Positions 1,794 through 64,000 of a DNA stretch of 64,000 nucleotides are shown piece after piece. Positions within the stretch are counted from its first letter, which is position 1. Every line of letters starts with the position of its first letter. Both the position numbers and the translations under genes were made by a program. Location of the stretch: NCBI GenBank assembly GCA_003024175.1, contig MDYQ01000074.1:43278-107277 (forward strand). Reading direction: 5' to 3'. This stretch comes from Planoprotostelium fungivorum. Its lineage: Eukaryota; Evosea; Variosea; Cavosteliida; Cavosteliaceae. Under the pieces are notes generated by a model, which had not been told where the DNA came from, searched no databases, and saw only the letters and a list, made by a program, of their open reading frames with translations.

Positions 1794-4299
1794 ATGATCT
1801 TCCTCCTCTTATGTCTCTCTCTTGTCTCTGTTGTATCATCTGATGTGAGCTCTCCTCTCTGTTGATTGGGTGATTGATATCAACAGGTCTCCATCAATGC
1901 AAATTGGACAGTGACTGACAGCCAGTTGAACTGCTTCACATCTCAGTTGAAGACCACATCATTCGATCAGGTGAGCTGATGATCTCCGACATCCGATGAT
2001 GATACTGTAAGATTCTTTTTCATTGGGGAGACACGGAGAGAGCGATGACGTGGATCCGACAAGGATTCATCTCTAACGAAGAGATGCAGGGGTGAATCAC
2101 ATCATGTATATTGTCCGCTGATGTGGTATCATCAGAAACATCCTAAGAGACGAAGGAATGCTAGCAGGTGATGATTCTTAAGACTCTCTATTCTAATTTC
2201 AACACCAGGTGGAGGATTGTACTTGTCATCCTCTCCCATCGATTCCATCTTGTTCGGACAGTTCTCTACCTCTCATCCCATTCCCGCGGGTACACTCGTC
2301 TATAACGCATCGGCCCTTGCATGCTTCGGGCGCAACAAGATCACACTGAGAGAAAAGGCTCAATTGGGAGCAGTTGTTCCCTTCATCGACTTTTACAAAG
2401 GCACGTGGAGTGTAGTCCACACGTATCTCCTCACTCAACAGGTGATGCGTTCGATCGACATCGAAAGCAATGTCGTATGATGATGGCGATCTGATGTTCT
2501 AACAGGTGTATCCTTCGGCCGTGTTCGGTCAAACTACGTTGAATATCGTGGGAGAATTTGATCTGAGAGCTGGATTGTGGAACATCACGGGGAGCATGAT
2601 GAACTCTGGAGTGGCCAACATGCTGGCGGCGAGTGAATTCATCCCGAGGATGTATTCTTCGATCTGTTACAGAGATGGGTGAGACCATACGTCTATCTCT
2701 TCTCAGACATCCATCCATCGTGACATCACATCATCTCGTGATGGTTCATCACAGTTCATATCGATGCAATATATCTTGACAACACCACATCATGATCCAT
2801 CTCACCGTGTATTCATTTTTTTAGAGTCGAAGTTCAACGCATCATCACCACGATGAACACGACCACTCCGTGGAAATATTTCGACGACGTTCAAGACTAC
2901 GAAGCCTTTCACTCTGCACTCATGAGCATCTACAACATGTCCGAGAGCAACCGCAACACCACAGTTCCGGGAGGTAAATGTTGTATCATATTCCATCTAC
3001 AACGTTGTAGATTGGGACCCCACGTGGGGAGCGGAAGGGCTGAGTCAGACCGATTACGTCGAACTGCAGATGTCTGTCGTGAGTCGAAAAGTCGATGACT
3101 TGTGATGACGTCATCACAGATGATACCACAGATATTTTCCATCGTAACTGGTACAAATGGTACGGACGCTATGTACAGAGACGGCTCGTACAGGGTGAGG
3201 TGGAGTTTTTGATGAAATTTCTGAAGATAGCAGAGCGTCGTTCAGGTCAGTCGATCGCAATTGTCAAATATGATGAACAACAGTTACCTATCCATCTCCA
3301 TATCCGATACAGGTGATCACCATGATGTGATCATCACACATCATCGTATCATACATGTTGTATATTGACGATATTACAGCATCAAATGGTGATGTGACTG
3401 TTTCTGTGAGCTACCCTGACATCACTGCCCTGTCCAAATTGAACGACAGAGGAGTCGTACCATCACAGTTGTACCAATCACTGAAAGCCTATAGTAGCGT
3501 AGACATCAGGTCATTCATCACCTTCACTCTCATCCGATCGATCGCATCATCATCATCATCATCTATATCCTACCAATCACATCATCTGACACATCTGCAG
3601 ACGAAACGCTACTCTTCGAAGTGACCTGAACCGAAAGTTGATGAGAGGACTGATGAGAGACGTGCTGAACAAGATGTACGATCAATCGCTGTCCCAGACG
3701 TCAGCTCAGTTCATTTGGTACCTCATGTCCATCCGTCCGTTCAACCAGAGATCAGACCTCGTCACAAAGTAAGAAACATCGTTTGAATCTTATGGAAAGA
3801 TGATTTTATTCGATTTTAATCTTTCCAGGAGCTATTATCGTCTCGTCGAATGGTCTGCCAGAAGGGAGGGAGACCAAGAGGGCTTTGTCTACAACAGTCT
3901 GATGGACTACATATCGGACATGACTCTACTATCTTCTCCCACGCAGAACGACGCCATCATGATGGGGTGAGACGATCATCACACGATGAACGATACACGA
4001 TCGGTGATGGAATGACATCGCATCAGATCTGGATCGGACATCATCGATCTTCTATCCATGATGTTGTCAGAGTCATTAGAGGCGACGTATCAGTTGAAAG
4101 ACATGGACTTCTCTGATTTAGTCGGCTGGAAGAAGTTGATGAAGAGATCAGTTGGAGACATGTGAGATGATGATGTGAAAGTGAGAGACTCAACGTATAT
4201 AGAAATGGACAACTGAACGCTACCGCTTGGGAATGTGCCAAGAGGAGGAATTGGCTCTGTTTTTTCGATCAGTTGAACCCAAATTGGAGAAAGAAGTAA
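1794..4299 (+). CDS. Secreted or lysosomal protein of unknown family
   Basis: The start ATG gives a clear signal peptide (MIFLLLCLSLVSVVSSD) just before the first GTGAG intron. About a dozen exons follow, with several N-glycosylation sequons (NAT, NMS, NTT), scattered Cys, and aromatic motifs such as SIDSILFGQFSTSHP and GVVPSQLYQSL. The last exon ends LNPNWRKK and stop, reached by a phase-2 joint after RSVGD. Total length is roughly 650-700 residues. I do not recognise the family; a lumenal or extracellular place is inferred from the signal peptide and sequons. The intron before DWDPTWG carries the full 18-bp intronic palindrome (2995-3012) exactly at its acceptor. Confidence 0.65.
2995..3012. 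repeat. Intronic palindrome ATCTACAACGTTGTAGAT
   Basis: This is a perfect 18-bp palindrome at the 3' end of an intron in the secreted-protein gene. The intron ends GTTGTAG and the exon resumes at AT (joint GGA G|AT TGG GAC). The same motif recurs in introns of unrelated genes across the window. Confidence 0.85.
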
Positions 4300-4453
4300 A
4301 GAGATCGTGATGACGCGAGGGAGATAATGTCTCTATGACTGCTTCTCAAACACATCACATGATCTCGTGATGAGTTGTGTTCGACAATAATTTATTCGTG
4401 GTGCAAAACTTGAACGACTGCGAGGTCGTCGGTCCATCCAAAGAAGAAGTCTC

Positions 4454-5660: not shown

Positions 5661-5737
5661 GCAGAATGCATCAAAGACGATGAGACGATGATTGTCGATG
5701 ATGAACTCTTTCGAAACAAATGAATTTATTCATCCCT

Positions 5738-8166
<2,429 letters not shown>

Positions 8167-8921: not shown

Positions 8922-11637
8922 TCAATGGCCCAGCAGATCGCGGTTGTCTTCGATCAACTTCTCATCAAAGTTTTTTCCACGGGGGAGGATTTCGTTCAAT
9001 TTGCACAACTGGAGTTACATCAGAGGTGATGATGATGATGAAGACATCTCACCGATGGCAGCGGCCTTGACTTTACGATGATCTCGGCTCTCTTCTGTCC
9101 GATGTTGTTGAGTCGAAGGAGTCTCTTCATATCTCCGTGATTCAGGATGTCTAACAGCTTCTTCGAGATCTCTTCTCTCATGGTCTGTGTTCGAGTCATC
9201 GAGAGATCGGATGATGTCATCTTCACATCGTCTAGAGCTTCCTCTTCTTCGTCATCTGAATCTGAATCGGACTCAGACTCTTCCCTCTGTTGGCTCCTGG
9301 GTGCCATTCTCAGCGGCTAAAGACATTCAGCACCTCCATCATGTCACGTCTGCATCCCACCCGGCTGGTCGTCTCCTCAACTCGAGCGGCCTTCGTAGAT
9401 TTCTCTTCACCCGCTTCGTTCACCCTCTTCATTCCACTCTGTCTCCCGTCAGCGTCCCAAACGAACGTCCCAATAAAAGACAATAAAACGAAATAAAATC
9501 ACCAGGAAGGATCCAGTGACTTCTCTTCTCGATTTGAGTGGAGTTGAATCAGCTGTGAAGAGTTGTCTCGAAGTCAACTTCTCTCTCGCTTCTTCTATCA
9601 TCTTCTGTAATTTGGGCTCGTAGCATTCGAAGCCTTCCGGTAGGTCGTCCAGCGCTGAGATGTTCAGCGTCTACAACGTTGTAGATGCACACCTCTCTGC
9701 AGGATCTGGATCTGCTTCGAAAAATCTCCGTCTGAGGCGGCGGCTTTCGATTTGGCGAGGAGCTCTTTGAACTGCACATCATCATCAGCATGATGGACGA
9801 TGATGAAACGACGGTCGTCTTTAGAGATGAGCTCACCCTGTCAATCTTCTCTTGATCCGCAGATTTCGCTGGCATGGGTGTCTGTGCTACACTCGCGTGA
9901 CTCCTCTCCTTGTCTTTAAGAGGTTCGATCTTGTCCACGTGCCTCTCCGTAGGCGAAGTCTCGCTCGAGCTACCCGCGACGGCAGACCTTCTTACGTCAA
10001 CGAAATTTCGCGTGGAATCGAATGAAATCTCACTTGGTTTGCTCCTGTACAGCCTCCTTCACCCACTGTAAAAGTGAGACATCGAACGAGGAGATGAAGA
10101 CATTCACCTGCTTGACGGCACTCTTCAGATCGTTCAAATTCAAATTTTTTGGAAAATCATTCCTCTCTTGCAGTGGCTTCCTCGCCTGAGTCGCTGCCAC
10201 CTTCTTCACCTGCTGCACGACATCTACAACGGGGGCATTCTCATCCACTGTCAACGTCAACCTCTACGCGATCCGCGTCGAATCACCCATGTTCACCGTC
10301 GGTTTGTTCACCACGAGTTTGGACTTGGAGGCGAAGTTTAACGTGTTCATTGAGTCGAGGTAGAATTGTTGACCGGGGGCGATATTGGCGATCATGACTG
10401 AGCAGCTGTTGCCACCGAGGGAGTCTTGCAGCATTCTCGTGAGTTTACTGTCACGGTAAGGAACGCGATTGCCCGGCTTATTGAGAGCGGTGACGACCTG
10501 GAAGGGATGAGAGAGAATAAAAGGAAATAAAAGAGAACGAGAGATGAGATGATGAAAGGAGATGACAAAGAAGGTGAAGGAAATAAAGATAGAGGAGATG
10601 GAGTACCTTGTTCAATACGAAGAGGGATTGGTTGATGTTCGTGCTCTCCTTCATTCGAAGGCCACTATTATCGGTTCTTCTGTTGTCTTCTGAGCCGGCG
10701 AGATCGATGAGGTAAAGCTTGCCCGTCAGAGTCTTCGTCTTCACCTTGCGTTCCACCTGGCATCATCGCGTGAGTGACTAATGACTTGAGATCTCATTTC
10801 GATCGCCCACCTTGATCATCAGGATGGCGTGACTTCGACTCGAGTGGGCGTTTAGCTTCGTGGCGCCAACAGTTCGGTTCTTGCATCCTGTGGTGTAGAT
10901 GTTGTTGAACTCCTCGATCTTTCGGATGCGCAGCTGCATGTGTTCAGGATGATGGATTCAATGTTGAATGTGTCGATATTCATTACCTCTTCTAGACCCG
11001 GGATGATGATGTTCTTCTTGTTGTCCTCTCGGACGGGTAATTCGGCGTGCTCTTCTTTGGGTGTTAAGAGATCGTACACCTTTTCGTTATAGATTTCCAT
11101 GTAAGAGACGGAAACAGTGGCGTCTTGAAAGTCTCTTCCAGAGTCGATCACGTGGGCTACGGATCTTGGAATGATGCCTGAGAGAGGCTATATCAGATGA
11201 TTTGTCCTTCTACGATATGTGAGGTCGATCTCACCCGGCTCTTCTTCCGAACCCTGCATGGTGTGCGTCTTTCCTGATCCGGTGACTCCATATGTGAACA
11301 CGGTCACATTGATTCCCTCATAGAGTTTTGGAATGAGATCTTTGACCTGAGAAAGATGTTAGACCGATAGATGTTCGAATCGAGTCACCTCTCGAGAAAA
11401 GAGGTCAGATTGAGTGGACTCGGGTCCATAAGAGGCATCCATTCTGAGACGAAAATGAGAAACGCAAGATGTGGTTCAGACACACCTGTATCTCAACGCT
11501 TCGGCATTCTTGATCTTATGATTGACCAACTGAATGGCATTATGCCCCTCCGTAGCCACACAAGCGCGACCTCCATCTCCGACCTCCTTCTTCATGAAAG
11601 GACGAATGCGAACCACTACACGCACTGAAGAGTCCAT
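8922..11637 (-). CDS. Kinesin-10 family chromokinesin (KIF22/Kid-like)
   Basis: An N-terminal kinesin motor starts at [14 protein letters not shown]. It carries the P-loop [14 protein letters not shown], the switch I region [12 protein letters not shown], switch [10 protein letters not shown] and [13 protein letters not shown]. The neck and middle are charged, with a short coiled stretch. The C-terminus has a helix-hairpin-helix like that of KIF22 ([19 protein letters not shown], then [14 protein letters not shown]), which binds DNA in the family. This supports a plus-end motor that moves chromosome arms in mitosis. The last exon ([14 protein letters not shown] to GLLGH-like end) is less sure. 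One 38-nt intron holds a full CTACAACGTTGTAG palindrome (9669-9686), so here the motif is internal and the acceptor is a later CAG. Confidence 0.9.
9669..9686. repeat. Intronic palindrome GTCTACAACGTTGTAGAT
   Basis: Seventeen of 18 bases match the intronic palindrome. It lies inside a 38-nt intron of the kinesin gene. Reading frame (LQR to ALDDLPEG) requires the acceptor CTCAG downstream of the motif, so the TAG of the motif is skipped here. Confidence 0.75.
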
Positions 11638-13528: not shown

Positions 13529-14884
13529 CTACTTGCTGAGGAGACGAACAGAGTTGATGAGCCAGTAAGATTCCTTGAAGGCAGAGGGGTTGTTAGACAC
13601 GAAGCCCTTGCAGTCGTTGCCACATCCTTGTTGTCCGAAGACGGCTCCGGCCCAGTCACCACAGAAGGTGATCTGATGCGATGATCAGATGATACACGAG
13701 ATGTTTGATGATGTGATCAAGATCGGTGAGATGGTGATGATGTGGTGATGGTGACGATGTCTCACATCGAAGATGATGTTCTGAGGACCAAAGTGAGAAG
13801 CGGGACAGTTGCCACCGAGGGGCGTGTGGGAATCGGGCTTACCCCAGTTGCATCTACAACGCGTCAGATCTCCAAATCCACGCGAATTCTCTCTCACGGA
13901 TTGGGGTGACCGCTGAGTAGATCAGAAGGGTACTTGTTCTTAGGGAAGAACCACACCTGCACTTCTATCAGATCCTCCCACCCTCTATCTCTTCACCTTG
14001 ATGGAGTTGGTAGTCCTCTCCATGGCATAGGCACCACCACCGTTTCGGTTGAAGCTGTCTCCGTAGGAGTTGGCCTTTGTGATCTGAACACCGCAACCAG
14101 CGTTGCCGGTGGCGGCGACGTCACTGGTGGAGATGAGGATAAGAATAAAATGAAATAAAATCGGACGGGGTCTCACCAGTTATCACCGGTGGCACGTCCG
14201 GTCATGTTGCGACTGCCGACTTTGCAGCCAGAGTTGGTGTGCAAGGTGACTTGGTTGACGTTTCCCTTGTTGACTCCCTGTAACACGATGAGAAGTCTAC
14301 ACGGAGGATGGTGATCACCTCGATGATGTCGATCTCTCCTCCACGAGGCCAGCTACCACCTAGATGAACTTGAGTCTTCTAATGGGTGTTGATGATTCAT
14401 GTGGCGATGGAGAGGAATGCTACACACCGACAGTCCAGAAGGCGGGCCAAGATCCACAGACAGATCCGGGCATGTGGTCGAGATCGATGATGAGAAGACC
14501 CTCAGTGAACGATTGCTTCGACTGGAGACGAATGGCGGGACGTCCTTTTGGTGCCTTGTTGGTGTGATCGACTCCCATGTAAACCTGTCCGAATCAGCGT
14601 GTGGCGAGATCGATCATCCATATGAACCTTATCTCCCTGGACGGAGATCAGGCCGGTCTTCTGAGCGGTGGCTCTGTCTTTGAACTGTACGTGTCCATGA
14701 GTGGGATCACCGGAGGTCCAGAAATCGAACTGCGACAGCGTTAAGAGGATGTCGGTCGGATGATACGGAATCTCACTTGATCGTAAAAATTGTTACCAGA
14801 CCATTTCTTCTCCTTACCCCAAGCACACTGGGCCCCAGAGGCTAAGACGATGCACAAGGCGAGAGCGAGGATGGTGGAGCGCAT
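13529..14884 (-). CDS. Secreted GH16 beta-1,3(4)-glucanase
   Basis: A signal peptide ([20 protein letters not shown]) precedes a complete fungal-type GH16 catalytic domain. Family blocks in order: [36 protein letters not shown], then the active-site GEIDIIEGVN with the ExDxxE catalytic arrangement, [65 protein letters not shown] and FCGDWAG. The stop is TAG after NSVRLLSK. Length is about 310 residues, normal for the family. It should cut mixed or laminarin-type beta-glucans of food cells or the amoeba's own wall. One intron ends TGACGCGTTGTAG. A perfect palindrome lies 67 bp upstream of the start. Confidence 0.92.
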
Positions 14885-14950
14885 GCTGCCTGAAAATGAT
14901 TCCAATCTTGACCCTGCGCTCGAGAAAGAGGAGTAGAAGATTCTATTTAC

Positions 14951-14968
14951 GTCAAAAACGTTTTTGAC
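14951..14968. promoter_or_regulatory. Perfect palindrome GTCAAAAACGTTTTTGAC upstream of GH16
   Basis: An 18-bp perfect palindrome lies 67 bp before the GH16 start codon. Its place and dyad symmetry suit a dimeric transcription-factor site. No other copy was noticed. Confidence 0.4.
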
Positions 14969-15529
14969 ATTTGAGGTGGCGGCCGTTGTTTGAAGTAATT
15001 CGACAAGACAGCCTACTCGTGCGATGACGGATCAACACCTCTCATCGTTACCCTTACACCTTTCAAGGGGGATGCTCGTCTGTATCCATCCACGGCCCTC
15101 CTTGCACTGTTCTCGAAAGTATAGATTTTCACTTCCTAAACAAACGCCCTGATTTGTCCTTCGCCGCCAATAGCTGGATTGAGAACGATGGACGACGAGA
15201 ACCAATTCTAAGCAGGTGACATTCCATCCTGGCCGCGGTGGTGAAGGTCATGTTCGTCAGATTCTGAACAAATGAGGTCTGATGTCAACCCTCTACATAC
15301 ACGACCCGGTTTCGACGGTGCGAATGACATTGATTCTCGGTCGCACTCGAACGTTTCTCCAGCCAAGTCTCAACACCATCGAAGATAGTCATTCATTTCC
15401 AATTTAATCTTACATCGATGGCTATAGCCTGCACGCCTCCGTCACTCCTACAACTTCAGTTCACAGCAAGACCTTTTCCGGGTTTCTGTCTCCGAGGAGA
15501 GCATCATCGCATCATCAACTATTGATGAC
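14969..15529. other. Intergenic, no gene seen
   Basis: I found no convincing frame, RNA gene or repeat between the GH16 promoter and the end of the first homeobox gene. Confidence 0.5.
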
Positions 15530-15838
15530 CTACCTCTGTCTTCTGTTCTGAAACCACACTTGAATGCGCCGGTCAGTGGTGTTCAGTTTATCCGCCAGTT
15601 CTGCCTTCCTGCGTACAGTGGGATACGCGTTGGCTCGGTACTCTTCTAGCAAGAGTCTCTGCTCTTCTGTAGAGAAGGTTTTCCTGTCTACATCTTCTAA
15701 GTATGATGTTCGAGGAAGATAAAGAAGCTCACTGTAATTGGCATTCGTCAGTGTCGGGCGTGAGAAGATCATGTTACATGTTGATGCATCTCGGACGAAG
15801 ACTTCGCTCTCTGAGCAGAGGAGGCGTGCGACCTCCAT
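15530..15838 (-). CDS. Small homeobox protein 1
   Basis: A 102-residue single-exon frame. The last ~55 residues form most of a homeodomain: KTFSTEEQRLLLEEYRANAY (helix 1), TVRRKAELADKLN (helix 2) and the recognition helix RRIQVWFQNRRQR with the invariant W-F-x-N-R core. The frame stops straight after the recognition helix, with no tail. The N-terminus has no known domain. It is a likely sequence-specific DNA-binding protein. A GTAGGT donor-like site at the stop leaves open a further 3' exon. Two more short homeobox genes lie at 17981 and 40829. Confidence 0.8.
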   Translation of the reverse strand: MEVARLLCSESEVFVRDASTCNMIFSRPTLTNANYSELLYLPRTSYLEDVDRKTFSTEEQRLLLEEYRANAYPTVRRKAELADKLNTTDRRIQVWFQNRRQR

Positions 15839-22748: not shown

Positions 22749-23083
22749 GATCGATCGATGATGATGTGATGGTGATTACCGTGGACCTGCTGTACGTTGT
22801 AGACCCTCTATTTTTTGTTTTGAGATTTAATTTGTTTATGAAGGACAGACATTTATTGTTGTCTTATGAATTCATTTCATGCACACTATCAGTTGTTTCA
22901 TCATCTGAGAGGAATGTGCTTGTCATCAGATCATTCGATCCGTCGTGCTCTCCTGACAATTGGAGCGTTCTTTGTTGGTAGCTAGTACCTGACACGAGAA
23001 TAACTTGACCACGCGTTATCCGAATTATCAAAGTTTGCTAAGATGAATTTGTAGTTTATGATCAAGCATTCGTCTCACAGCGT
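22749..23083. other. Intergenic, no gene seen
   Basis: Divided between the start of the helical-repeat gene and the 3' end of CEMIP-like gene 1. AT-richer than its neighbours; no frame or RNA structure stands out. Confidence 0.5.
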
Positions 23084-26000
23084 TCAGATCAACGCGAGAG
23101 CAGCAAAGATCACACAGAGAGAAAGAGCCTCAACTGAGCTTGCTCTATTTGCCTTCAAACTGCATCTATTCAGCAAAACCCTACATCCTCATCTCACCCT
23201 TCTTGTACAAGCGTGCTCGTCTGTTGTACACCCGATGTCGCCGGCGACGCATAAGTGTATGCGATCTCCTTTGCTGTACCAGCGTACAATTGGGCGGGAA
23301 CGGTAGAGAATCTCACTTGGCTGAGGGACAGATTGAAATAATTCTGTCCATAAACATCGAATTCGTTGTCAACAGCGGGTCCAAAGGAAAGCCTGTGAAA
23401 GGAGTTGTTGAAATTGAAGCCGGCGGTAGGAAGGCGAACAAAAGTCCATTCGTCGTCGACGAAATAGTTTGGCGAGTAGCTCTGGATCAGTTGGGGATTA
23501 TTAGCCGAGCCCCAGTAGCCTTGACTGGTCACTTGTAGAATGATGGTCGTGTCAGGTGCGGTGGACTTGGCAAAAAACTCCACGGAGACGAAGCGATCGG
23601 GGAGCTTGCTGCGAGATGTTTCAGACGATGAAAGTTGAGACGACTCACGATGCCATGTCAGTGAAGCCGAATGAGTTGTAGTTCGAGTTGATGAAAGTGA
23701 GAGATTGACCGTCGCACATAGGGGAGCTAGTGTCGTTCTTGATGATGATGCTGTCACCGTAGAGACCGACCAGAGAAGAACCTGATCACTTCAAAAATTG
23801 TGATGATAAATCAGTCACCGTTGTAGACGGGAATCGTCTCGTACGATGGTTTACAAGCGGGTACGGCGGAAGAGTCAGCGGGTGCCCAAGTCTTACCATC
23901 AGTGTCTTGCATCTTCACCTCTCCACTCAAAAGCTGTCGCACATCAGTCCACGTCGATGACGTCATAACACGTCATCACTCACGATGTCTCCCGTCACTG
24001 ATGATGTGGCCATCAGCTGTAAGCCACCTGCGTTCACCATCTCCCACAGTCTTCTCGTCAGAGGAATGACAAAAGACACGCCCAAGATCTTCTCTCTCAG
24101 TAATTCAGACACACACTCGTTGTTCACTGCGAGGCAGAAGTTGTAGTCCAGTCCTCTGAGGTTGTGGTACAGCTGATAGGCCAGGCGAGGTGCGAGGTTA
24201 CGGTAAGAAGGATAGAGCTGGAAGAAGGCAGTGCCAGCTGCATCTTTGGGTCCCTACGATGTCATCAGATGTGATGACGTCATCGTTGTAGATGATGTAA
24301 CGTACCAGGAGATCAGCGCGGAAGAAATCGTGACGGACGGCCTTGGGCAGAGCTGCAGGCTGAGGGGCAATGGTAGCCTTACCCGATCTTCTGCAGTTGG
24401 TACCGCAAGAAGCAGTCACCTAAATTTAGATCAGTCCACTGTCTTCGCAGTCTCAATCGATCACCATAGTCTTCTGTCCCTGACTGTATGGACTCTACGC
24501 AGGTTGTCAGATCTCATCACGTCATCACACGTCATCATTCACCTTGTAGTAATAATCACCACCTCCTCTGTAACCGTACTGCTGTTCAGTATCGGATGAC
24601 AAGAGAATGTACAGCTTCTCCAGACTCGAATCGTAGTAGTACGTGTTCCAGCTCAGATCTTCGTACGCGTTCACTTGCTTGTGCTGCACCGCAGGTGTGC
24701 TGTATAATGTCAGCCATGAAGAATGATGACACTACGACTCACTTGGCCGTATTATAGCTGGTGACGACAGTTAAGGTAGTACCCTTGGGATATGCGATAG
24801 AGAAGATGACCCATCCGTTCGCTTTCGTGCATTGTCCCATCGTCAGAGTCAGAGAACCGAAAGACTGGAAGATCGAGCCAGTCGTGTTGAAGTTGACGAT
24901 CTCGTAATGGCCGCCGTTCATGAAGGCAGTGTAGACGTACTATGACTTAGCTCCATCCGTGCTCTCTGTGTTACGTCAGATGGATGTGAAGGATGAAACT
25001 CACGTAAGAAGTGTACGTTGGTGATGGGTGTTCCCATGGGAACAAAACCGACGATCCAGTTCGAGAATAAATTGACGATGACTTTTCCTCCGACGTAATC
25101 CATCTGGTACTGGGTGGGGTCAGATTTTTCCGGGATCCATGGTGACACGTTGACCTGTCACGTGTGAGATGACGTCACGTGACTTCATCCACTCACGTCG
25201 GCTGAGACGACCATGTGAGATAGACCATACTTGAACCAGTTGCACTGATAGCCTGGCCATGAGTCCTTGTACGTACACTCTGGCATCTGTGCATGTCAGA
25301 TGAAATTCAAGTCGATGTATCCCACCTTGCCGAATCCAGGCATCGCACCGAGGATAAAAGCTCCACCCTTTACACCTGATGACGTCATCATACGTAATCT
25401 ACGTATGCGTGCGCACCTGTCATGGTACCATCATCCAGGATACCGTCGGCGTGGAACGTGTAAGTGTTGAACCAAGAGGGAAAGGCAACGACTTCAGAGT
25501 TGATGAGAGTCGAGTTGAGAGCCATCCATCCCTGCAACATTGTCACGCCTCGCACTTTGACAAATGAAGAACACATACCGGTGGTGAGTCCCAGCCGGGT
25601 CCGTTTCCTATCGCAGGGTCAGTCGCGTCTCGATATCTTACACCGAGATGTCTGCTCACCTGATCCACTCCATGCCTGCTGTAGGTCAGTCACTCTTCAA
25701 CATATCGCTTGTCATCCACTCACTCCGTACGGTACGTTGGGATCCGTAAAGTTGATGAAAGTGGAATCTACAACGGTCAACCCGTTTCCCACGTCATAGT
25801 GTGTGACCCCTCCAATGGGTGTGATTCCTCCATTGGGATCTGGAACCGAGATACCCTGCTTCGTGTTGGGTAGACCCCTGTCGTGATGAGTGATGACCAT
25901 CGTTGTAGACGAACTCACTTGTTATCGGATCTTCCGATGAAAGTCCAGTTGACTGCGGCCTGGCCGTTGATGACGTCGATGCCTCGGCCGAAATCGGCCA

Positions 26001-27946
26001 CGACGATGTTCTGATGACGTCAGATGACGTCATCACAGGTCATCATACCTTCCAGGTAGCGGGAGCACATCCACTGGACCATATGGCGGACCCACGGATC
26101 TACAACGCGTCAATTCTCGTGGTCTCGGTAAGATCACATGGATTGTCGCACCTTGTAGACGATCATGTCACTTAGCACGAGGGGAATCTTCATGTTATCA
26201 GAGAATGGAGGGCCAGTTGTAGGCTGCCAGCTGCCGCTTCCAATGTTACCGGCATCATCAGCTTCGAAGCCGGAGCACTGTACACCGTCTTGGTAGATGG
26301 TATGGATGACCTTGCCATGGAAACCGTTGGGGGGCAGAGATGTACGCTGGGGGCTCATGACTTTAGGATCCGGCCAGAAGACGGCAGACTTTCTCAGTGG
26401 CTTCACGGGCATGACAAACCAGAAACCAATGAACGAACCAGAGGCGACTGTATTGGCTTTTCAGTGTGATGGGTGTGACGTGTGATGACGTCACCGTTGT
26501 CGATGAAGGTGTTGTTGGGGTTGGAGACCTGTGGATGTCAGGGAGGAGAATCATATTGAGGCTCACCCAGAAGGCACTGGCTTGGCTGTCCGAGACCAAC
26601 AGTGGTTGAGCCATGTTCTGAATGCGTGCTCCCCAGTTGCGAATAAACTGATTGCCATGCTCTCCTCCTGCGTCGTCCTTCAGTCTGCAGCGATGAGTGA
26701 CGAGAGGTCACCATCTTCCAAGAACCAGCAGTGACCGAAAGTGTTGTAGCCAATGTTGTCTTGCAGTGTGATGCCGTGTGTCTCGTGCACAGACACGCAT
26801 CTCTAATAGCAGTCGTGTATGGATGATGCAGACACAACGACGTTCATGCCGAACATGAAGCGAGCCAAGTGAAAGTGAAGGGGATATCTGTTCGTGTCAA
26901 CTTGGAAGGTGACGATGACGGAGGGGATGGAGAATGGGTGGGACATCACCTTCCCATGACTCCAGACTGTCCCATACGTGTCAGCTCTACAGCTTGGACG
27001 ATGTGATAGCCGTATCTCAGCATGATGTGACCACCCTGACTGTTGCTGTCGGAAGCGTTGTCACCTTGTATGACGATCCTCTTGGTTAGCAAACTGAAGC
27101 AGCTCAGAGGAAGATGTTAGGAATCGAACAAGTCTCTCCCCACTTCGGCTCTCTGATAGCCTTGACCCCAGTGAGTGAAGCTGAGAGGTGTAGACAGCGT
27201 CACTGTCTTTCCATCGGAAGACACGCCCTGTATCACTATCGTCTCGTGCTGATCCGGGAACTTGCCCTTCTTTCAAGAATTAGAGGATGAGGAGTCGGCG
27301 AGATGATGTCTTACCACTTCAGTGAAATCGGTGGAGGCAATCAAGATGGTGTCGCCAGTTCTCCACTGGACGGCGTCTTGTAATTGAAGACTGCTGCTGC
27401 TGTTCATAGCGTTCGAAGTCAGTCGAGTCCAAGAGGGTCCGGCAGTATAGCCGAACATCTGCACAGTGCCACCCATCATCGACACAAGACCTTTGACGCC
27501 AAAGTCGGTTGAGTCATATGGGTCAGTGCCGAGTGCTTTACCACCCACGAGAGTGATGGTCACCTGCTCATTTCAGCTTCCGATCGATTTGAATCGCATT
27601 GAATCATCATCAATCGGGTCACCTTCTTTGTGACGGGACAGTCTTTTGTTCCAATATACAGTGTTCCATTCGTGCCGACCACGATGCCTTGTGTGACTAT
27701 AGACAAAGTGGCGTCCAAGATGTAAAGCACTCCGTTCACGTGGATGACTCCGAGAGAGTTCTGAGGGCTAGAGTCGAGCACGGCTGTGGTACCAGCCGAG
27801 ATGGTGGCATCGCCGTTGAGCTGATTCCAGTCGGAGCGGGTAGACCACTTGATCGTTCCTGACGGAAGACTAGGTGGGCAGGCTGCGAGAGCGCAAGCCC
27901 CGCCCACGATGAAGAGCAACAAGAACGCGAGGTGGCCGCGACTCAT
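23084..27946 (-). CDS. CEMIP-like G8-domain protein 1, GPI-anchored
   Basis: A large secreted protein (roughly 1,150-1,250 residues, over 20 exons). The signal peptide HLAFLLLFIVGGACALA is followed by a G8 domain (IKWSTRSDWNQL, AVLDSSPQNSLGVIHVNGVL, YIGTKDCPVTKK). Next come parallel beta-helix repeats with the CEMIP/TMEM2 signature SIHDC..RCVSVHETHG and DNIGYNTFGHCWFLEDGD, then further beta-rich modules with paired Cys. The C-terminus is SVEALSLCVIFAALALI, a GPI-anchor signal. CEMIP and TMEM2 are animal hyaluronan-degrading or -binding proteins; the substrate here is unknown. Introns are short and many hold TGACGTCA or CTACAACG motifs. It is closely related to two further genes at 54427 and 60407. 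Confidence 0.88.
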
Positions 27947-37700: not shown

Positions 37701-40055
37701 GAGGCCCAATTTCTCCTCCGACCAATCCACTCCAAATCAACACCTCGGTGAAGAGAATTTTCTCGGAAATTTACCTGACGGCTCCAGGGTCTGGGAGGGA
37801 TCTGGCGGAAAAATTCCACCTCGGGGAGTCCCAATTCGAGTCCCAAATTTCGAGTGTCGCAAGAGATTGCGACGGATGAGTTCTGGGGTCCGTCGACTGA
37901 TCTGAACGACACACAACAACTCTTATTGCACATCAGAAAGGGTATACCTGATAACCACAGACAGAAGGTGTGACATCATCTCATCTACAACGCGCCAACA
38001 CCCCTTCTATATTTTTTTAATTTTCCGATATAACTCGCCATATCGTTCATCTACAACCCGCCATGATCTCATCTACAACACGCCAATTCTTGTAGGTGTG
38101 GCTGTCTATTAGCGGCTGCACAGAATCTCTCGCCCAAGACGACAAACAATACGAGAGAGCTCTACGCGCCGCCTTTACCTCTGAAGAGATAGACAGTGCC
38201 TTGACACCCGATGGAGATCTATTGTGGGACGATCTCGTCATGAAGAATCCACATATGCTATCGGGTTACCTACCGGACGGTGAGCCCGTCGATCTACAAC
38301 GAGACTGATCTATTTTTAGGATTCTCGCCTCAGAATCACAACCTGTCGGAGGAGAATCAGAAGAGGATGCAGAGGCTGCTGTGGGTTCTGTACAAGAAAT
38401 CTCGACCACATTTCTCTTACTTGCACCCCATCCTGCCTGACATGAGTGAGATTTAAAATTTGAATTTTGAATGACCCGCGTAGTCTGCATACTCTTGCAT
38501 TACATCTCAGAGGAACAAGCCTTCTACACGACACGATCTCTGTTCAATCAGACGAAGGTGAGACTATTTTTAGATTATCGAGCTCGATCTACAACGTTGT
38601 AGATATCGGACTTCGCTCACTTCAATATCCCTGATCTGTTCACTGCCGTCACATTGAATGCACTTCACATGTGTGCACCAGATCTTCACAGTCACATCAA
38701 CTCCTTTGTAGACGACATCGAGCAGTGTCATTTTGCCTCCCGGTACCGTCTCGTTTCATTTTGTCTTCGTTTTATTTCATCAAAAACATTTCCCTCTATT
38801 TTACGTTTGTGAAATTTAAAATTTTTTTCAAATCATCGTTCTGTCTAGATATAAAATATCTCATTTTCACAAATTTGATGAAATTTCAGTTGGTTTTCCA
38901 GACTCTTCGTCGGCAGATTCCCCTACCGTGTCGTACTCCGCATTTTCGACTGCTTCGTATCAGAAGGTATCTACAACGTTGTAGATGGAACACTCACCCC
39001 CTCAGGCATGGTCATCCTCTTCCGCGTCGCCCTCGCAGTCTTTGTAAAGAATGCAGAGGTCCTCTTGAAGTGCACGAGCTTGCATCAGATCACACAAGAA
39101 TTAGAGAACTACATGTCTAACTACAAAGACAACGACGTCGATATACTCGAACTGGCCTGGGGTGTTTCTTTTCGGTGAGATGCGTTCATCTACAACGTTG
39201 TAGATTGACACGGAGGCAGACGCAACAGCTGTCTCGATTATCTGAGGAGGTCGAGAGATCAGCAGCTGCCGAGTGAAATAGACAGTCTGTCCTCTATTCT
39301 CGATCACGAACAATTGGCGACACTGTGGTTGTGGCTTCCCATCAGGTACGATCTACAACGTTGTAGACTAGATCGTAATTCCGATGAAATATCGCAGATG
39401 TCAACTGGACGAACCGGTGAGAATTTTTACCACAACGAAACACGGCTTCAACCTGACTTCGCTGGTGATCGATCTCATCATCTGTTCGTTGTAGATTGAC
39501 AATAAAAGGTGAATAAATGTTCGACGTTCACGCCGAGCGTCATGATCATGAGAACGAAAGAGGGACACAAGTTTGGACTCTTCCACACCGGGACGTGGGA
39601 AAAGACGGAGAAATTTCAAGGTACGGGGGAGACCTTCTTGTTCTCTATGTCACCTAAGATGAGACGGTACCCTTGGACCAAGGAGAATAATCTCTTCTTC
39701 ATGGTGAGAGAGATTTATTTCCTTTTATTTCTCCTCAATGGAAGCGAAAAGTATCTGAATTGATTCGGATTTATGTGCATTCGAATGACACACATTCAGG
39801 CTTCGAATGCGATCATGATTGGTGGAGGGGGATCAGGTTGCAGCATCTACCTCGATGACGGTGAGTCATCATCATCATCAGCATTACGATGAGACATCTG
39901 TCGGCATGTCTGTCGTCTGAACACGAACAGAATTACTCCACGGCAGCTGCAATCGCAGCGCCACGTTTGATAATGCCAGCTTAACTGGAGGTGGAAAGAA
40001 AGATTTCGAATGCGTGGAGTTGGAGGTTTTTGGTTGGGAGACGATGAAGAAATAA
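34739..40055 (+). CDS. C1-RCC1-TBC-TLDc multidomain protein
   Basis: A large gene with over 20 exons and ~1,000-1,100 residues. Order: an atypical C1 zinc domain (HTFTWKRVPSKNCDICNNSL, then YECHKCAIFTHKGC); RCC1 repeats (HTLFLTDNGHIYSCGGNQNG, GGHHSLALTLDGE, WGKGENGRLGTG, ACGWGHTLVLF, YYHSAVVTDDGS, LYVWGRLFN); a TBC domain (IRKGIPDNHRQKVWLSISG, FSYLHPILPDM, LRIFDCFVSEG, LFRVALAVF); and a C-terminal TLDc domain (HKFGLFHTGTWEKTEKFQG, ELLHGSCNRSATFDNA, ECVELEVFGWE). TBC proteins act on Rab GTPases, and TBC plus TLDc recalls TBC1D24. The usual YxQ glutamine finger reads YLH and no IxxDxxR arginine finger is seen, so GAP activity is doubtful. One intron houses a tRNA-Lys; many carry the CTACAACG motif. 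Confidence 0.88.
36252..36324 (+). tRNA. tRNA-Lys (CTT), nested in an intron
   Basis: A full cloverleaf of 73 nt: acceptor GCCCGTC/GGTGGGC, D-loop TAGCTCAGTCGGTAGAGCG, anticodon arm CACGG CTCTTAA CCGTG, T-arm GGGGG TTCGAGC CCCCC, discriminator G. The anticodon is CTT. A run of seven T follows 5 nt later, a good Pol III stop. It lies in the sense direction inside an intron of the C1-RCC1-TBC-TLDc gene, between exons carrying ATLSNEE and MAMRMMNALRDTLK. Confidence 0.97.
36484..36672. repeat. Intronic (TCA)n / (ATC)n microsatellite
   Basis: Nearly 190 bp of imperfect TCA/ATC triplets with interspersed CACGATCTTCATC units. The flanking frame (FNREE, then LPVEKKVRPTEI) is best served by splicing it out, with the acceptor TCAACAG at 36679. 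Confidence 0.8.
37983..38086. repeat. Three copies of ATCTACAACNCGCCA in one intron
   Basis: ATCTACAACGCGCCA, ATCTACAACCCGCCA and ATCTACAACACGCCA occur near 37983, 38049 and 38071 inside one intron of the RCC1/TBC gene. All three face the same way, and the intron ends TTGTAG. This is the half-site form of the window-wide intronic motif. Confidence 0.8.
38587..39368. repeat. Cluster of four intronic 18-bp palindromes in the TBC part
   Basis: ATCTACAACGTTGTAGAT occurs at 38587-38604, 38969-38986 and 39188-39205, and with one change at 39351-39368. Each sits between coding blocks of the TBC region. At 38587 the exon resumes straight after GTTGTAG (NQTK to ISDF). The copy at 38969 leaves room for only an 18-nt intron. 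Confidence 0.85.
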
Positions 40056-42084: not shown

Positions 42085-45525
<3,441 letters not shown>

Positions 45526-48521: not shown

Positions 48522-51500
48522 TTATTGCAGTGAGATATTACTACCGTGCTTCTGATGTTTCTGACAATACAACTGTCCTCCATTGACATAAGCTCTCGAT
48601 CGGATGGCTCTCATCTTCTGCTTTCCCGAGGGAAGTCCTCTCTGTACGTTGTCGATCTGTATGGACACCTGCTCAACGTCAGTGTGGATGCTCTCATCGC
48701 GTGACGATCACCTCTTGTGCATCGAGGTGCTGATCACAGGTGTTACAGGCCAGGCAGTGAGCGTGCCACCTTCTTCCGAACAGGTGAATGACTCCCGGAT
48801 CAACTGAAGTCCTCGGGAAAGGCCGGATAAATAGCTGTCCACCCATCATCAGATCTCCATCCATGATTGCGATGACGGATGATGATGATGATTCACCTGA
48901 TCCCGGTTCCAGGGTGCATCTTCTTGTGGATCACCTTCCATCATGTTGTTACACTTGGGGCAGAAGTGGAATGCGCGGTAAAAATGCTCCAGGCAGAACA
49001 ATTGACCGTCTAATCCCTCGTAGATGGTGTTATCACCGAACGGAGACTTGCAGACCGAGCAGACGGTACACTTTGTGTGCCACTCTTGACCTGAGAAAAT
49101 TCTCAGATATTGAAATTTCGGGTTACGCACCCTTCGATGTGACAGCGTGAGCGTCTGAGCGGTCAACGTTCTCGCCGCAGCCACCACAGCCTGCCACCTG
49201 AAGATTTCAGAGAATATTCCGTGAAATCTCTCTGAATATTCACCATGTCTGAACCGGATGCAGATTGCACCGTGCTGCCGTAGCCTCTCGATAGAGCTCG
49301 ACTGTCCTGCTACAACCCGTCAGTTTCATTCGAATGAGTCTCCCTCACCTTCTCCATCTCGCTGTGGGTTCTCACCACGAGGGAATTTTGATCCATGGAG
49401 CTCTGCTGGGAAATGAGAGCGGGAGGGGCGTTCATGACTTGAGAGTCCATGTTACTCTTTCTCAGGTCTGATAGAGACATCTTCGAATGGCTTTCCTTCT
49501 TCTCGGTCGAGTTGAACAGAGCCGGAGCTGTTGGAATTTGAGCGGGAAAACAATAAAATGAAATAAATGATTCACCGTCGCGGATGGGCGTCTTTTCTTC
49601 TCTCTTTCGCGAGAAAGTGCGGAGGGAACCACCGTAATTGGGCTCAGTCTTCAGAGCTTGAGTTCCTCTTAAAGTCCAGAAGGTGCTATTGTTCTTCTGT
49701 TTCTAAACTCCTTGGTCAGATGATGATGCATCGTGTGATGGTGATGAACTCACGTCTTCGTAGTCGAATGTGTTCATGTTGTCCTTCTTACGTAAAGTTC
49801 TGAAAACACTCGAGAGACCTCCCTGATCATCATGAGACATCATCCGACCGCCGTCACATCTCACCTTCTTCTTCTCCTTGTTCGGACGAGGTCTGAATTC
49901 TGCCAGCGTATTATTCGCAGCCTGCGAATCCTTCTTCGGAGTGGGAGGTAGACCGGTCCTACCCCAAGTCAACCGTGAAATCTCGATGAAATCTCACTTT
50001 GCATGTTCGTAGAACGCCGCCACGTTACGTTTGGCACTGACCGCACGGCTCAGTCTCCTGGGGGGCATGCTGATAGGTCTCCTCACGTCTTCTCCCTTCT
50101 ACAACGAGTCAAAACAAACTCCGACGTACTCCGACATACCGATGGAGGTGGTAGCCTCTCACTCTGTGCCCCTCTCGATTGCATGAGGCCCACGCCAATG
50201 GGTGACCTCTCGCTGGGAGCCGGAGTCGTGATAGAGTCCAACGTGCTGACCAAGTCAGCTCTACGTCTCTGCAAGCTGATGATGGCGCCTTGTAGAGCGT
50301 CGACCGAGTAAGGCATGTGAGCGGGAACACTGTACGGGAGGGACATCATCGAATCCATCAGTCCCTCGGCCTCCCAGCGTAATTGTTTGATCTACAACGA
50401 GTCAATTTGGCTCCACGTGTGAAAAGAGTGTATCACCTGTTCTCTACATTTGAGCCACAAGTTGTTGTCTGAAAATTCCTGAGAAGAAGATACTTGCTCG
50501 ATCGATTCGATGGCTCTCAGCAATTTGTTCGCGTGGATCTGAGTTTCCGTAGCGGTCACCGCCGCTACGCCTGCATCCGTCAATCTACAACGCTGTAGAT
50601 GGACCCCTTCACCTCCGATGGTGTAAGTGTGGATGCTGCGCAGCACGGCGGCCAGTCGACTGCAGTGTCTGTTGATGGCACCGCACATGTCTTCTACACT
50701 GCTGCCGGTGGTGTAATCCATCGTGTCATACTGTTGAGACACCATCTTTGGTGTAACTACCTTTGGTGTAACCATTTTTGGGGTGGCCATCTTGGGTGTC
50801 GACACTTTAGGCGTCGACATTTTAGGTGTCATGGACCTACTGGCCGTGACTCGTACTTGTGATGTCTTGGGGGAGATCTGTGATATCTTGGGGGTAACCT
50901 GTGATATCTTGGGGGTGACCTGTGATATCTTGGGGGTGACCTGTGATATCTTGGGAGTCATCTGGCGCGTCAGATCTGAGTCAACGGTGGTGGGTTTAGA
51001 GGTTGACTTGTGGATGTCTTGAGAGCTCCTGGCTACGGGTATGACAATCTCATCTACGGGTGGAGGAGGTAGAGGTAGTGTGGCGTAGTAATCTGGACAG
51101 TTGAGCGTTGTAGACGGACGTGCGGTACTTACCATCTGACATCTCCGAGGGGTCCAATTCTTCGCCCGAACTCGAATTTCCGACGTACTGCACGATGTTA
51201 CCCTCACATTTGCGCGGGAAAATTTGGCGGGAAAAGTCTCACCTCTAAGATATTGGAGGGACCCCATCGGACTTGAATTTCACCAGAATCTCTCTCTAAT
51301 TCTGCCGGTATGACCTCACTGTCTGTGTAGGCTTCGTCGTGGTACATCACGTCTCTCGGTACATCCTCCTCTTCCTCGGAGCTTACGTCGGGGTACGCAT
51401 CGGAGTTCGGGGTCGGTTCGGGATCGGACGTATGCTGCGTACGTAACTCCTGGGTGGGGGTACGTACGATCTCGGACATACGCTCCAGGTTCTCGTCGAT

Positions 51501-57400: not shown

Positions 57401-59285
57401 TCCAAGTGGAAGGTGAACACCCTCTCGTCCACACTGCAGGTCCACGGATCTACAACGCGTCAACTCTGAGGGACGTCCTCCGATATCCTCACCTTGTAGA
57501 TGATCATGTCACTCAATACGAGAGGAACTTTCATCCAGTCAGCGAATGGAGGACCACTCGTGGGCTCCCAGCCACCGGCATCCAGATTGCCTTCGTCATC
57601 TACTTCCATGTTGGAACACTGTACACCGTCCTGGTAGATCGTGTGGATGACGTTGCCACGGAAACCGTTGGGAGGTAGAGATGTACGACGAGGGTTCATC
57701 ACTGTCTGGTCGGGCCAGAAGACGGCAGACTTTCTCAGCGGGTGGGGTGGCATGACGAACCAGAAACCGATGAATGCTCCCGAGGCGACTGTATTGACGT
57801 GTCAGAGTGATGATGGTGACGTGTGATGACGTCACCGTTGTCGATGAAGGTGTTGTTGGGGTTGGAGATCTGATGGATGTCAGGGGTGAGAAGTCGATCG
57901 AGGCTCACCCAGAAGGCACTGGCTTGGCTGTCTGAGACCAACAGAGGCTTAGCCATGTTCTGAATGCGTGCTCCCCAGTTGCGTATGAACTGATTGCCAT
58001 GCTCTCCTCCTGCCTCATACTTGAGTCTGCAGCGATGAGTGATGAGAGGTCACCATCTTCTAAGAACCAGCAGTGACCAAAAGTGTTGTAGCCGATGTTG
58101 TCTTGCAGTGTGATGCCGTGTGTCTCGTGCACAGACACGCATCTCTGACAGCAGTCGTGTATGGATGATGCAGACACAACGACGTTCATGCCGAACATGA
58201 AGCGAGCCAAGTGAAAGTGAAGAGGGTATCTGTTCGATTCATTCGGTCCAAGATGGATGACGGATGAGACATCACCTTCCCGTGACGCCAGACTGTCCCA
58301 TACGTATCAGCTCAACGGCCTGGACGATGTGATAGCCGTATCTCAGCATGATGTGACCACCCTGACTGTTACTATTGGAAGTAATATCGCCTTGTATGAC
58401 GATCCTCTTGGTCAGTAAACTGAAGAAGCTGAGTTCCAGCTCTTGGAAGGAAGATGCGAAGGATAGAATGGTCTCACCCCACTTCGGCTCTCTGATAGCC
58501 TTGACCCCAGTGAGTGAAGCTGAGAGGTGTAGACAGCGTCACTGTCTTTCCATCGGAAGACACGCTCTGTATCACTCTCGTCTCGTGCTGATCGGGGAAG
58601 CTGTCCTCCTATAATACAATAAGTCGACGTGTAGAACAGTTGTGGAGTGTGCTGACGCCTCACCACTTCAGCGAAATCGGTAGAGGCGATCAAGATGGTG
58701 TCGCCAGCTCTCCACTGCACCGCGTCTTGCAGCTGAAGACTGCTGCTGCTGTTCATAGCGTTCGAAGACAGTCGAGTCCAAGAAGGTCCGGCAGTATAGC
58801 CGAACATCTGCACAGTGCCACCCATCATCGACACAAGACCTTTGACGCCAAAGTCGGTAGAGTCATAAGGGTCTGTGCCAAGAGCTTTACCGCCAACAAG
58901 AGTGATAGTCACCTGCTCATTTCAACTTCCGATCGATCGGTTGTGGTTTCATCTCTGATTGAATTACCTTCTTTGTGATGGGACAGTCTTTCGTTCCGAT
59001 ATACAGCGTTCCATTCGTGCCGACTACTATGCCTTGTGTAGTGAGAGACAAAGTGGAGTCCAAGATGTAAAGCACTCCATTGATGTGGATGACTCCGAGA
59101 GAGTTCTGAGGGCTAGAGTCGAGAACAGCTGTGGTACCAGCCGAGATGGTAGCATCGCTGTTGAGCTGATTCCAGTCAGAGCGGGTAGACCACTTGATCG
59201 TTCCTGACGGAAGACTAGGTGGGCAGGCTGCGAGAGCGCCGGCCACGGTGAAGAACAACAAGAACGCGAGTTGGCTGCGACTCAT
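54427..59285 (-). CDS. CEMIP-like G8-domain protein 2, GPI-anchored
   Basis: A close paralog of the gene at 23084, with the same exon plan, length and domains. It has signal peptide QLAFLLFFTVAGALA, the G8 domain (IKWSTRSDWNQL, VLDSSPQNSLGVIHINGVL), the CEMIP signature (SIHDCCQRCVSVHETHG, DNIGYNTFGHCWFLEDGD), Cys-paired beta modules and a GPI signal (ANSAVTLSFFVVFTALALL). Exons and many introns align at the DNA level over 4.8 kb, so duplication is fairly recent. The region before the start codon is also duplicated. No frameshift or in-frame stop was noticed, so the copy looks intact. Confidence 0.88.
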
Positions 59286-59380: not shown

Positions 59381-59691
59381 CAAACATCTAAATGTGCCTT
59401 TGACACATCGACCATCACAAAGCGACTCTCAATCACACCTTCCGCGTCACAAACATGGTGTTGTGTGAGAGGCCGTACAATGAACATCTCTGAATACAAC
59501 CCATGAGGTGCTCGTCATCGTGTTTGCCGGTCGAAGGTGGAGTATTCCCTTATACCTATACATGCAGTAACAAGGTATCAGCGGTAACCTGTCTGGATCG
59601 ATGTAGACAGATACCATTTTGTATCCGCGAATTGGGTCTGTTTTAACAAAATTCGTTCAGAATAAATACGGTCGCATCATCGTGCATCAAG

Positions 59692-60346: not shown

Positions 60347-60406
60347 AAGGAATAAAGATGTACAATCGTGGGTCATGATTTATAGAATCAAGCATTTGCC
60401 TTGCGT

Positions 60407-63400: not shown

Positions 63401-64000
63401 TGAACACCCTCTCGTCCACACTGCGGGTCCACGGATCTACAACGCGTCAATTCTGAAGAACGTTCTCTGATATCCTCACCTTGTAAATGATCATGTCGCT
63501 CAACACGAGAGGAATCTTCATCCAGTCAGCGAATGGAGGACCACTCGTGGGCTCCCAGCCACCGGCATCCAGATTGCCTTCATCATCTACTTCCATGTTG
63601 GAACACTGTACACCGTCTTGGTAGATCGTGTGAATGACGTTGCCACGGAAACCATTGGGAGGTAGAGATGTACGACGAGGGTTCATCACTGTCTGATCCG
63701 GCCAGAAGACGGCAGACTTTCTCAGTGGCTTCACGGGCATGACAAACCAGAAACCTATGAATGCTCCCGAGGCGACTGTATTGAAGTGTCAGCGTGATGA
63801 TGGTGATGTGTGATGACGTCACCGTTGTCGATGAAGGTGTTGTTGGGGTTGGAGATCTCAAGAATGTCAGGGGGGAGAAGTCGATCGAGGCTCACCCAGA
63901 AGGCACTGGCTTGGCTGTCTGAGACCAACAGCGGCTTAGCCATGTTCTGAATGCGTGCTCCCCAGTTGCGTATGAACTGATTGCCATGCTCTCCTCCTGC
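60407..64000 (-). CDS. CEMIP-like G8-domain protein 3, partial (5' end beyond window)
   Basis: The C-terminal ~800 residues of a third paralog. It ends with the GPI signal NSVAALSLFVVFAALALI and TAA at 60407-60409. Upstream exons match genes 1 and 2 module by module (SYSPNYFVDDEWTFVRVPTA, YNLAPRLAYQLYHNLRGLD-type block, DGQSLTF, NGVHYEI-like NGGHYEIINHN, KPLLVSDSQASAFWVSLDR). The window ends inside the beta-helix region, so the G8 domain lies outside. In most exons it is closer to gene 2 than to gene 1, including shared intron sequence, which suggests that the gene 2/3 pair arose last. Confidence 0.85.

Follow-up and report, generated by a model that had tools for sequence, protein, structure and literature searches.

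Introduction

In compact genomes, short introns are commonly taken to contain hardly more than splice signals. Among described intronic words, the Arabidopsis motif TTNGATYTG is the nearest in function. It is reported to be derived from introns, to enhance expression and to work in transcribed DNA without splicing, the introns that carry it being promoter-proximal and having no effect beyond about 1 kb (PMC6760150). Introners are screened for by similarity reaching near both intron ends, and some have inverted repeats at their termini and provide one of the two splice sites (PMC9860276). The introner elements of Amoebophrya are described as having arms of 8–20 nt that pair the intron ends, mostly with non-canonical splice sites (PMC7789003). 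Here we describe a palindromic motif, CGTTGTAG and its reverse form CTACAACG, found in a 64,000-nt stretch of the genome of Planoprotostelium fungivorum (contig MDYQ01000074.1, positions 43,278–107,277; hereafter the window) and throughout the rest of that genome.

The motif is in large excess, is concentrated in predicted introns, occurs in both orientations and, where its two halves meet, keeps them at one fixed spacing. We propose that it is a double-stranded DNA site for a sequence-specific, probably dimeric protein in the bodies of long genes. This proposal, drawn from sequence patterns, is given a probability of about 0.48; both the protein and its recognition of DNA rather than RNA are what we infer.

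Bacterial DNA uptake sequences are words of about 10 nt present in many copies, in both orientations and often as inverted pairs. The likeness lies in the copy pattern; the motif here is intronic and its host is a eukaryote. Like TTNGATYTG, the motif is a short, multi-copy word over-represented in introns; unlike it, the motif is rare within 600 bp of gene starts, commoner beyond 1 kb, palindromic and more rigid. TTNGATYTG is the closest functional precedent, and the distribution seen here is the opposite of its own. With introners the motif shares being common to many introns of one genome, but here the motif alone is common, and the same intron is found with and without it. With the Amoebophrya elements it shares inverted intronic arms able to form a hairpin, whereas the motif is a single fixed sequence that can stand at any place within a GT-AG intron. 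A text search of the literature with four motif strings gave no instance of the 14-bp palindrome among the matches listed, and the literature lists show no such motif in titles or abstract openings. Against viral contigs, the 20-mer palindrome had no match and a 17-mer had one, the chance level of which was not assessed.

Sequences and gene models

The sample comprises the window and a further 174.6 kb from this genome, 238.6 kb in all. Arm spacings and mismatches were counted in a 256.6-kb set, made of the sample plus six of eight short loci cut around motif copies (two overlapping ones were dropped), and thus slightly enriched in the motif. Genome-wide counts cover 36.86 Mb in 471 contigs, each pattern read backwards serving as its own control.

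Genes were predicted on both strands with a home-made finder. Its acceptor model is NAG/N only (a slash marks the splice junction), so that the motif is not built into the gene model. A first gene model merges genes; it was used for the first assignment of sites and as the second source in their classification, beside a stricter model. Predicted introns peak at 40–44 nt. The filtered set of 757 introns excludes genes of low coding score and introns outside 30–150 nt; the inverted repeats, the positional tests, the intron comparison, the unevenness of TGACGTCA and the per-gene correlations were confined in like manner. One locus, L013, is a tandem coding repeat that holds CGTTGTAG four times in identical sequence context. 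It was excluded from the codon shuffle, the filtered-intron analyses, the densities, the inverted repeats, the positional tests, the intron comparison, the site classification, the pair counts, the correlations and the unevenness of TGACGTCA, and it was included in the assignment of sites under both gene models, the arm-spacing and mismatch counts and the unevenness of the motif between genes.

Abundance and form of the motif

The window holds 58 matches to CGTTGTAG/CTACAACG on both strands, against a mean of 1.21 and a maximum of 4 in 100 dinucleotide shuffles, and CGTTGTAG heads the ranking of enriched 8-mers. The window-wide motif described by an earlier, sequence-only reading of the window is thus confirmed. 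Genome-wide, ATCTACAACG occurs 7,984 times (4,011 + 3,973 in the two orientations) vs 62 for the reversed control (35 + 27), CTACAACG 14,371 times (7,188 + 7,183) vs 2,122 (1,037 + 1,085), and CTACAACGAGYCA 1,885 times (959 + 926) vs 2 (2 + 0). For the palindrome, CTACANCGNTGTAG (CTACA-NCGN-TGTAG) is found 1,653 times vs 2, and the exact 14-bp core, CTACAACGTTGTAG, 750 times vs 0. Allowing one mismatch in CTACAACGTTGTAG raises its count to 1,728 (control 19), and allowing any loop gives 2,042 palindromes (control 169).

The symmetric site is CTACA-NCGN-TGTAG, often flanked by ATC and GAT. The commoner form is a single half, ATCTACAACG, sometimes lengthened to CTACAACGAGCCA: 29 of the 135 classified sites are palindromic and 106 are half-sites, comprising 19 AGTCA-like, 11 AGCCA-like and 76 others, named for the letters after CTACAACG. 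The spacing of the arms is strict. In the 256.6-kb set, CTACA and TGTAG are separated by 4 nt in 18 cases and by each of the 30 other spacings from 0 to 30 nt in 0–2 cases. All seven one-mismatch copies of CTACAACGTTGTAG in this set are changed at the two N positions and none in the arms. CGTTGTAGAT is present exactly 81 times, while its one-letter variants at positions 2–9 number 0–6 each, so decayed copies are few. Symmetric half-sites, at a fixed spacing and in both orientations, are the mark of a site for a dimeric DNA-binding protein. The near-equal orientations, the single spacing, the few changed arms and the few decayed copies point to such a protein, which would read the duplex CTACA-NCGN-TGTAG or the single half ATCTACAACG.

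The sequence-only reading had named eight positions in the window at which both forms fuse into an 18-bp palindrome. All eight hold the 14-bp core CTACAACGTTGTAG. The full 18-bp palindrome is perfect at 2995, 38587, 38969 and 39188, and an outer base deviates at 9669, 39351, 43356 and 51556. Two near copies had also been pointed out, at 43702 and 50583; their cores, at 43704 and 50585, are changed at a loop position only.

Location in introns

Sites lying wholly within introns number 107 of 141 in the first gene model and 90 of 141 in the stricter one. Introns, with 90 sites in 50.8 kb, have a density of 1.77 per kb. Intergenic DNA, to which gene models of low score were assigned, has 13 sites in 43.9 kb (0.30 per kb), and exons have 32 in 133.9 kb (0.24 per kb). 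The difference between introns and intergenic DNA (p = 4.7e-13) is the enrichment that the sequence-only reading had proposed as a check, and its placing of the motif in the introns of unrelated genes holds as well. Codons would leave little room for a fixed word in exons, which may be why the copies lie in introns.

Some of the junctions are backed by homology. In PCCB, the intron ending at 6870 falls in a gapless stretch of the alignment with the solved mitochondrial PCCB 7ybu_C, the junction having been placed by eye. In a myosin I gene (L012), compared with the relative P0001, seven of the nine motif introns are gapless at the junction. Another leaves two residues overhanging, and the last is in a tail of repeats. 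The best named matches of this myosin are from dictyostelid amoebae, at about 53% identity, and two other relatives are 86 and 83% identical. Part of UGGT also aligns to a solved homologue.

In exons, copies exceed the number expected from a synonymous-codon shuffle (14 vs 4.9 for CTACAACG, 18 vs 0.74 for CGTTGTAG). Some of these are mis-called introns, which we do not claim for all of them. The exonic matches noted earlier near 10228 and 29706 correspond to sites 10224 and 29707, both exonic in the stricter model.

Motif-bearing introns make up 74 of the 757 filtered introns. Up to 75 nt, the mean lengths of motif and other introns are 44.4 and 45.9 nt (p 0.66), and the donor letters of the two groups are alike.

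Distribution along and between genes

The motif is scarce near predicted gene starts. It is present in 1 of 159 introns less than 600 bp from the start, in 7 of 101 at 600–1000 bp and in 42 of 404 beyond 1 kb. Within-gene shuffles predict 9.2 motif introns in the first 600 bp, where one is seen (P 0.0002); promoter-proximal enrichment, the hallmark of intron-mediated enhancement, is thus not found among the predicted genes. With rising gene length, the motif is found in 3/91, 9/174, 16/198 and 46/294 introns. It also clusters by gene: the unevenness between genes has a chi2 of 193, and the largest value in 2,000 shuffles is 146. The gene for UGGT has the motif in 13 of 24 introns, an RCC1/TLDc gene in 10 of 26 and the myosin I gene in 9 of 25. 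Of the 46 genes that have eight introns or more, 24 lack it altogether in their introns.

Both the enrichment of introns and the dearth of copies close to gene starts suggest gene bodies as the place of action. The effect of a bound protein would most likely be on RNA polymerase II elongation or on gene-body chromatin. A more elaborate version, possible though doubtful, is an operator system of gene bodies, in which a dimeric protein would read thousands of identical sites, palindromes or halves, in tiny introns remote from gene starts and denser in long genes, and TGACGTCA, treated below, would be a second word. The introns would then be docking slots for elongation control, gene-body chromatin or the suppression of cryptic starts. 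If a protein does bind the motif, such gene-body regulation would offer a testable reason for the persistence of these introns.

Several results weigh against a DNA site in gene bodies. The labels intron, exon and intergenic come from a home-made predictor without RNA sequencing, save for the junctions checked by homology. The motif is six times rarer in intergenic DNA, where a DNA site might be expected too. In genes of at least 3 kb taken alone, the deficit in the first kb is not significant (5/88 vs 34/287, p 0.11). Predicted introns close to starts are also poorer in branch-like words (0.30 within 600 bp vs 0.44–0.47 beyond 2 kb), and a control word, CATCATCA, is likewise low there, with 8/159 and then 17/101, 14/181, 16/174 and 6/49. 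Part of the 5′ deficit may therefore consist of false introns. From gene to gene, the share of introns with the motif goes with the GC content of third codon positions (GC3; rho 0.44) and with the coding score (rho 0.38), so that it may follow expression or the quality of prediction. In the whole genome, 978 palindromes have a single mismatch, at least 75 of them outside the two N positions. The number outside N would be about 190, spread over twelve positions, if double-N changes were as frequent as in the places listed, a rate taken by eye from 2 of 16 changed copies among 50 listed places on contigs C1 and C2 only. Finally, the AGTCA form runs one way only, as described next. This is the logic of an RNA-level signal, though it is also expected if that form is the only one capable of serving as a 3′ splice site.

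Reading direction and splice junctions

In the sense of transcription, the filtered introns hold 46 copies of CGTTGTAG and 39 of CTACAACG. Eighteen introns (18/757, or 18/74 of those with the motif) end exactly in CGTTGTAG; when these terminal copies are taken away, 28 CGTTGTAG stand against 39 CTACAACG (p 0.22). The exon after a terminal copy begins with A in 18 of 18 cases, and with AT in 12 of 18. The motif therefore runs across the splice junction. In a wider set, TGAC-N-CGTTGTAG is found in 15 of 20 terminal half-sites. This AGTCA form is seen only with CGTTGTAG in sense (19/19, 15 of them terminal), whereas the intronic AGCCA form takes both orientations (4 and 4). We read the AGTCA form as the site merged with a branch point and an acceptor and the AGCCA form as a plain extended site; the 3′-end intron copy would accordingly be written TGAC-N-CGTTGTAG/A. 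The sequence-only reading had offered a built-in cassette of branch site and acceptor as one account of the motif. This describes the terminal subset and fails for the 78 of 101 intronic copies that are not terminal, 47 of the 101 being unable to act as an acceptor because they read CTACAACG in sense.

A splicing element acting at the level of RNA is the best of the alternatives, and we consider it unlikely. The pre-mRNA would form a hairpin (stem CTACA/TGTAG, loop NCGN), or the motif would be an intronic splicing enhancer, and at the 3′ end it would be an extended acceptor. Such an element would account for the concentration in introns, for the terminal copies with TGAC at a fixed distance and for one-mismatch copies in the sample that alter the loop and leave the stem. 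However, single halves in both orientations prevail, and the loop is fixed at 4 nt though other lengths would work. No compensated stem change is seen in the sample, in which compensation could not show, as none of the seven one-mismatch copies alters an arm. In introns without the listed motifs, 5-bp inverted repeats are in modest excess (537 vs 420 in shuffles, with gaps of 0–12) and have no preferred loop length. Introns with the motif resemble the others in length and donor letters, the three U2 loci read have an intact GTAGTA, and scarcity near gene starts is not a feature that an RNA element predicts.

U2 small nuclear RNA was found at 14 loci above the cut-off (G000, L027–L029); the top score is shared by contigs C27 and C123. 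An altered branch-reading sequence in U2 is ruled out for the three loci read, all of which have GTAGTA.

Paralogous introns

Three G8/CEMIP-like genes lie on one strand of the window, at 20745–27946, 54427–59285 and 60407–64000 (Pfam was run on the first only), and their proteins are 83–90% identical. Two of their introns have the motif in the window, while the copies on other contigs are without it at the corresponding position. The intron of the 26100 site is present without the motif in L034 and L035, and that of the 25901 site in L034–L036. A third intron has the reverse pattern, in an alignment five columns off, and in a fourth, that of the 24284 site, the third paralogue of the window falls short of two motif bases and keeps the intron. 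Thus, the motif has turned over inside older introns, and among the CEMIP-like paralogues no case was found in which it arrived together with a new intron.

In one CEMIP-like intron, the forms with and without the motif differ by a block of about 11 nt. This block could have been left by a selfish mini-insertion, that is, a palindrome of 10–20 bp with no function for the host that drives its own spread, through insertion, gene conversion or a recombinase, and survives mainly in the introns of long genes; purifying selection could then explain the scarcity near starts. We hold this to be quite improbable. The paralogue comparisons are few, and at the two other intron positions inspection by eye revealed no clean block. 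Introns with the motif are not longer than the rest, the scarce one-letter variants demand either very recent spread or constraint, and intergenic DNA should tolerate such an insertion too.

Two further observations concern these genes. The introns starting at 24254 and 61576, in two of the CEMIP-like genes, are identical over 52 nt, which suggests recent gene conversion between the two. L034 and L035 are very similar inverted copies near both ends of contig C443 (at 1.3–2.9 and 122.2–123.8 of 128.9 kb).

Other intron-rich words

A second palindrome, TGACGTCA, which we take to be a CRE/bZIP site, occurs 45 times in 50.8 kb of intron, never in 43.9 kb of intergenic DNA and 10 times in 133.9 kb of exon. 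It too is uneven between genes, only 1 of 2,000 shuffles being equally so. Like this presumed site, the motif is a palindrome with CG at its centre and is over-represented in the introns of this genome; the sequences differ. A deficit of the second palindrome near starts, measured on GATGACG/CGTCATC, is not significant within genes (5 in the first 600 bp vs 7.2 expected, P 0.23). In the form GATGACGTCATC, this palindrome occurs 993 times genome-wide vs 4 for its control (an example is at window 25378–25389).

The behaviour of TGACGTCA lends some weight to the view that both are ordinary intronic transcription-factor sites, the motif being one of several regulatory words in the introns of a compact genome. 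This is very unlikely in our estimation. Intergenic DNA is poor in both words: CTACAACG has 5 sites in the 12.7 kb of divergent stretches, which bear promoters, 3 in the 14.3 kb of tandem ones and 1 in the 10.9 kb of convergent ones. Early introns are poor in CTACAACG, and so large a number of copies would be unusual for the site of a gene-specific factor.

Other words are enriched in the introns of the sample relative to a Markov expectation, namely CTACAACC/AACCCGCC and the presumably E2F-like TTCCCGCC/GGCGGGAA. TTCCCGCC is not denser in introns than in exons.

Intron similarity and mobile elements

An all-against-all comparison of introns gave 15 pairs similar from end to end, all of them paralogous: 14 among the three CEMIP-like genes of the window and one within a single leucine-rich-repeat gene. 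Among the alignments listed (40 of 171 rows), those between motif introns span 15–22 nt only. Thus, similarity reaching both splice boundaries, as in introners, was not found in unrelated genes. Pairs of sites 18–1500 bp apart point inward in 74 cases and outward in 60, with no favoured length; that is, the inverted ends at a recurring length that would mark a miniature inverted-repeat transposable element (MITE) do not appear among these pairs, and up to 30 nt the 4-nt spacing is the only recurring one. The intron density of a gene is unrelated to its motif share (rho 0.12, p 0.43).

The sequence-only reading had also suggested that the motif may mark the ends of mobile, introner-like introns. 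On an account of this kind, introns would be born by insertion of an introner or MITE with the motif in its inverted ends; the short inverted arms, the many introns, the unevenness by gene and the acceptors given by terminal copies would suit it, but the confinement of end-to-end similarity to paralogues, the introns that keep their position with or without the motif, the few one-letter variants, the similar numbers of inward and outward pairs and the unrelated intron density make it the least probable account of all. A motif common to many introns, even one that is palindromic and doubles as an acceptor, need not mark mobile introns.

Sites in the window

The individual sites are collected in Table 1.

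Table 1. Palindromes, near copies, terminal copies and donor-proximal half-sites of the motif, in window coordinates.
Feature	Position	Strand	Context
Perfect 18-bp palindrome ATCTACAACGTTGTAGAT	2995..3012		ends at acceptor of predicted + strand intron 2974–3010
Palindrome core, one outer base off	9669..9686		38-nt − strand intron 9655–9692, kinesin-like gene (by reading the translation)
Perfect palindrome	38587..38604		3′ end of predicted 45-nt + strand intron from 38558
Perfect palindrome	38969..38986		intronic in first gene model, exonic in second
Perfect palindrome	39188..39205		ahead of branch-like TGAC, 45-nt + strand intron from 39175
Palindrome core	39351..39368		just inside donor, + strand intron from 39346 (21 or 52 nt by model)
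Palindrome core	43356..43373		ahead of TGAC, 41-nt − strand intron 43343–43383, AAA ATPase gene
Palindrome core	51556..51573		gene on − strand; limits of the intron uncertain
Near palindrome CTACAACGCTGTAG, one loop change	50583..50600		42-nt − strand intron, then TGAC
Near palindrome CTACACCGTTGTAG, one loop change	43702..43719		
Terminal TGACGCGTTGTAG/A	6870..6877	−	acceptor of 38-nt PCCB intron
Terminal TGACGCGTTGTAG/A	13854..13861	−	44-nt intron
Terminal form	26100..26107	−	CEMIP-like gene; paralogue at 63437 with same intron and form
Terminal TGACTCGTTGTAG/A	29852..29859	−	SH3-domain gene
Terminal TGACTCGTTGTAG/A	37267..37274	+	RCC1/TLDc gene
Terminal TGACTCGTTGTAG/A	50099..50106	−	
Terminal TGACTCGTTGTAG/A	50392..50399	−	
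CEMIP-like paralogue, same form	57450..57457	−	terminal in first model; within merged 132-nt intron in second
Terminal TGACGCGTTGTAG/A	63437..63444	−	CEMIP-like paralogue
Half-site, CTACAACG in sense of − strand gene, near donor	25901..25908	+	also present in the paralogues, at 57251 and 63238
Donor-proximal half-site	24284..24291	+	intron identical over 52 nt to paralogous intron holding 61606
Donor-proximal half-site CTACAACGAGCCA	42536..42543	+	40-nt − strand intron

The gene near 13855 had been labelled GH16. Pfam, at E ≤ 0.001, matched homeodomain families only, so the label is not upheld; the gene model at 13529–15772 apparently joins two genes, one with a homeodomain and one for a secreted protein that bears GEIDIIE. 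At 5738, 28992, 39487 and 46253 in the window, copies of the motif adjoin AATAAA words, as in CGTTGTAGATTGACAATAAA; these four may lie in 3′ ends rather than in coding introns.

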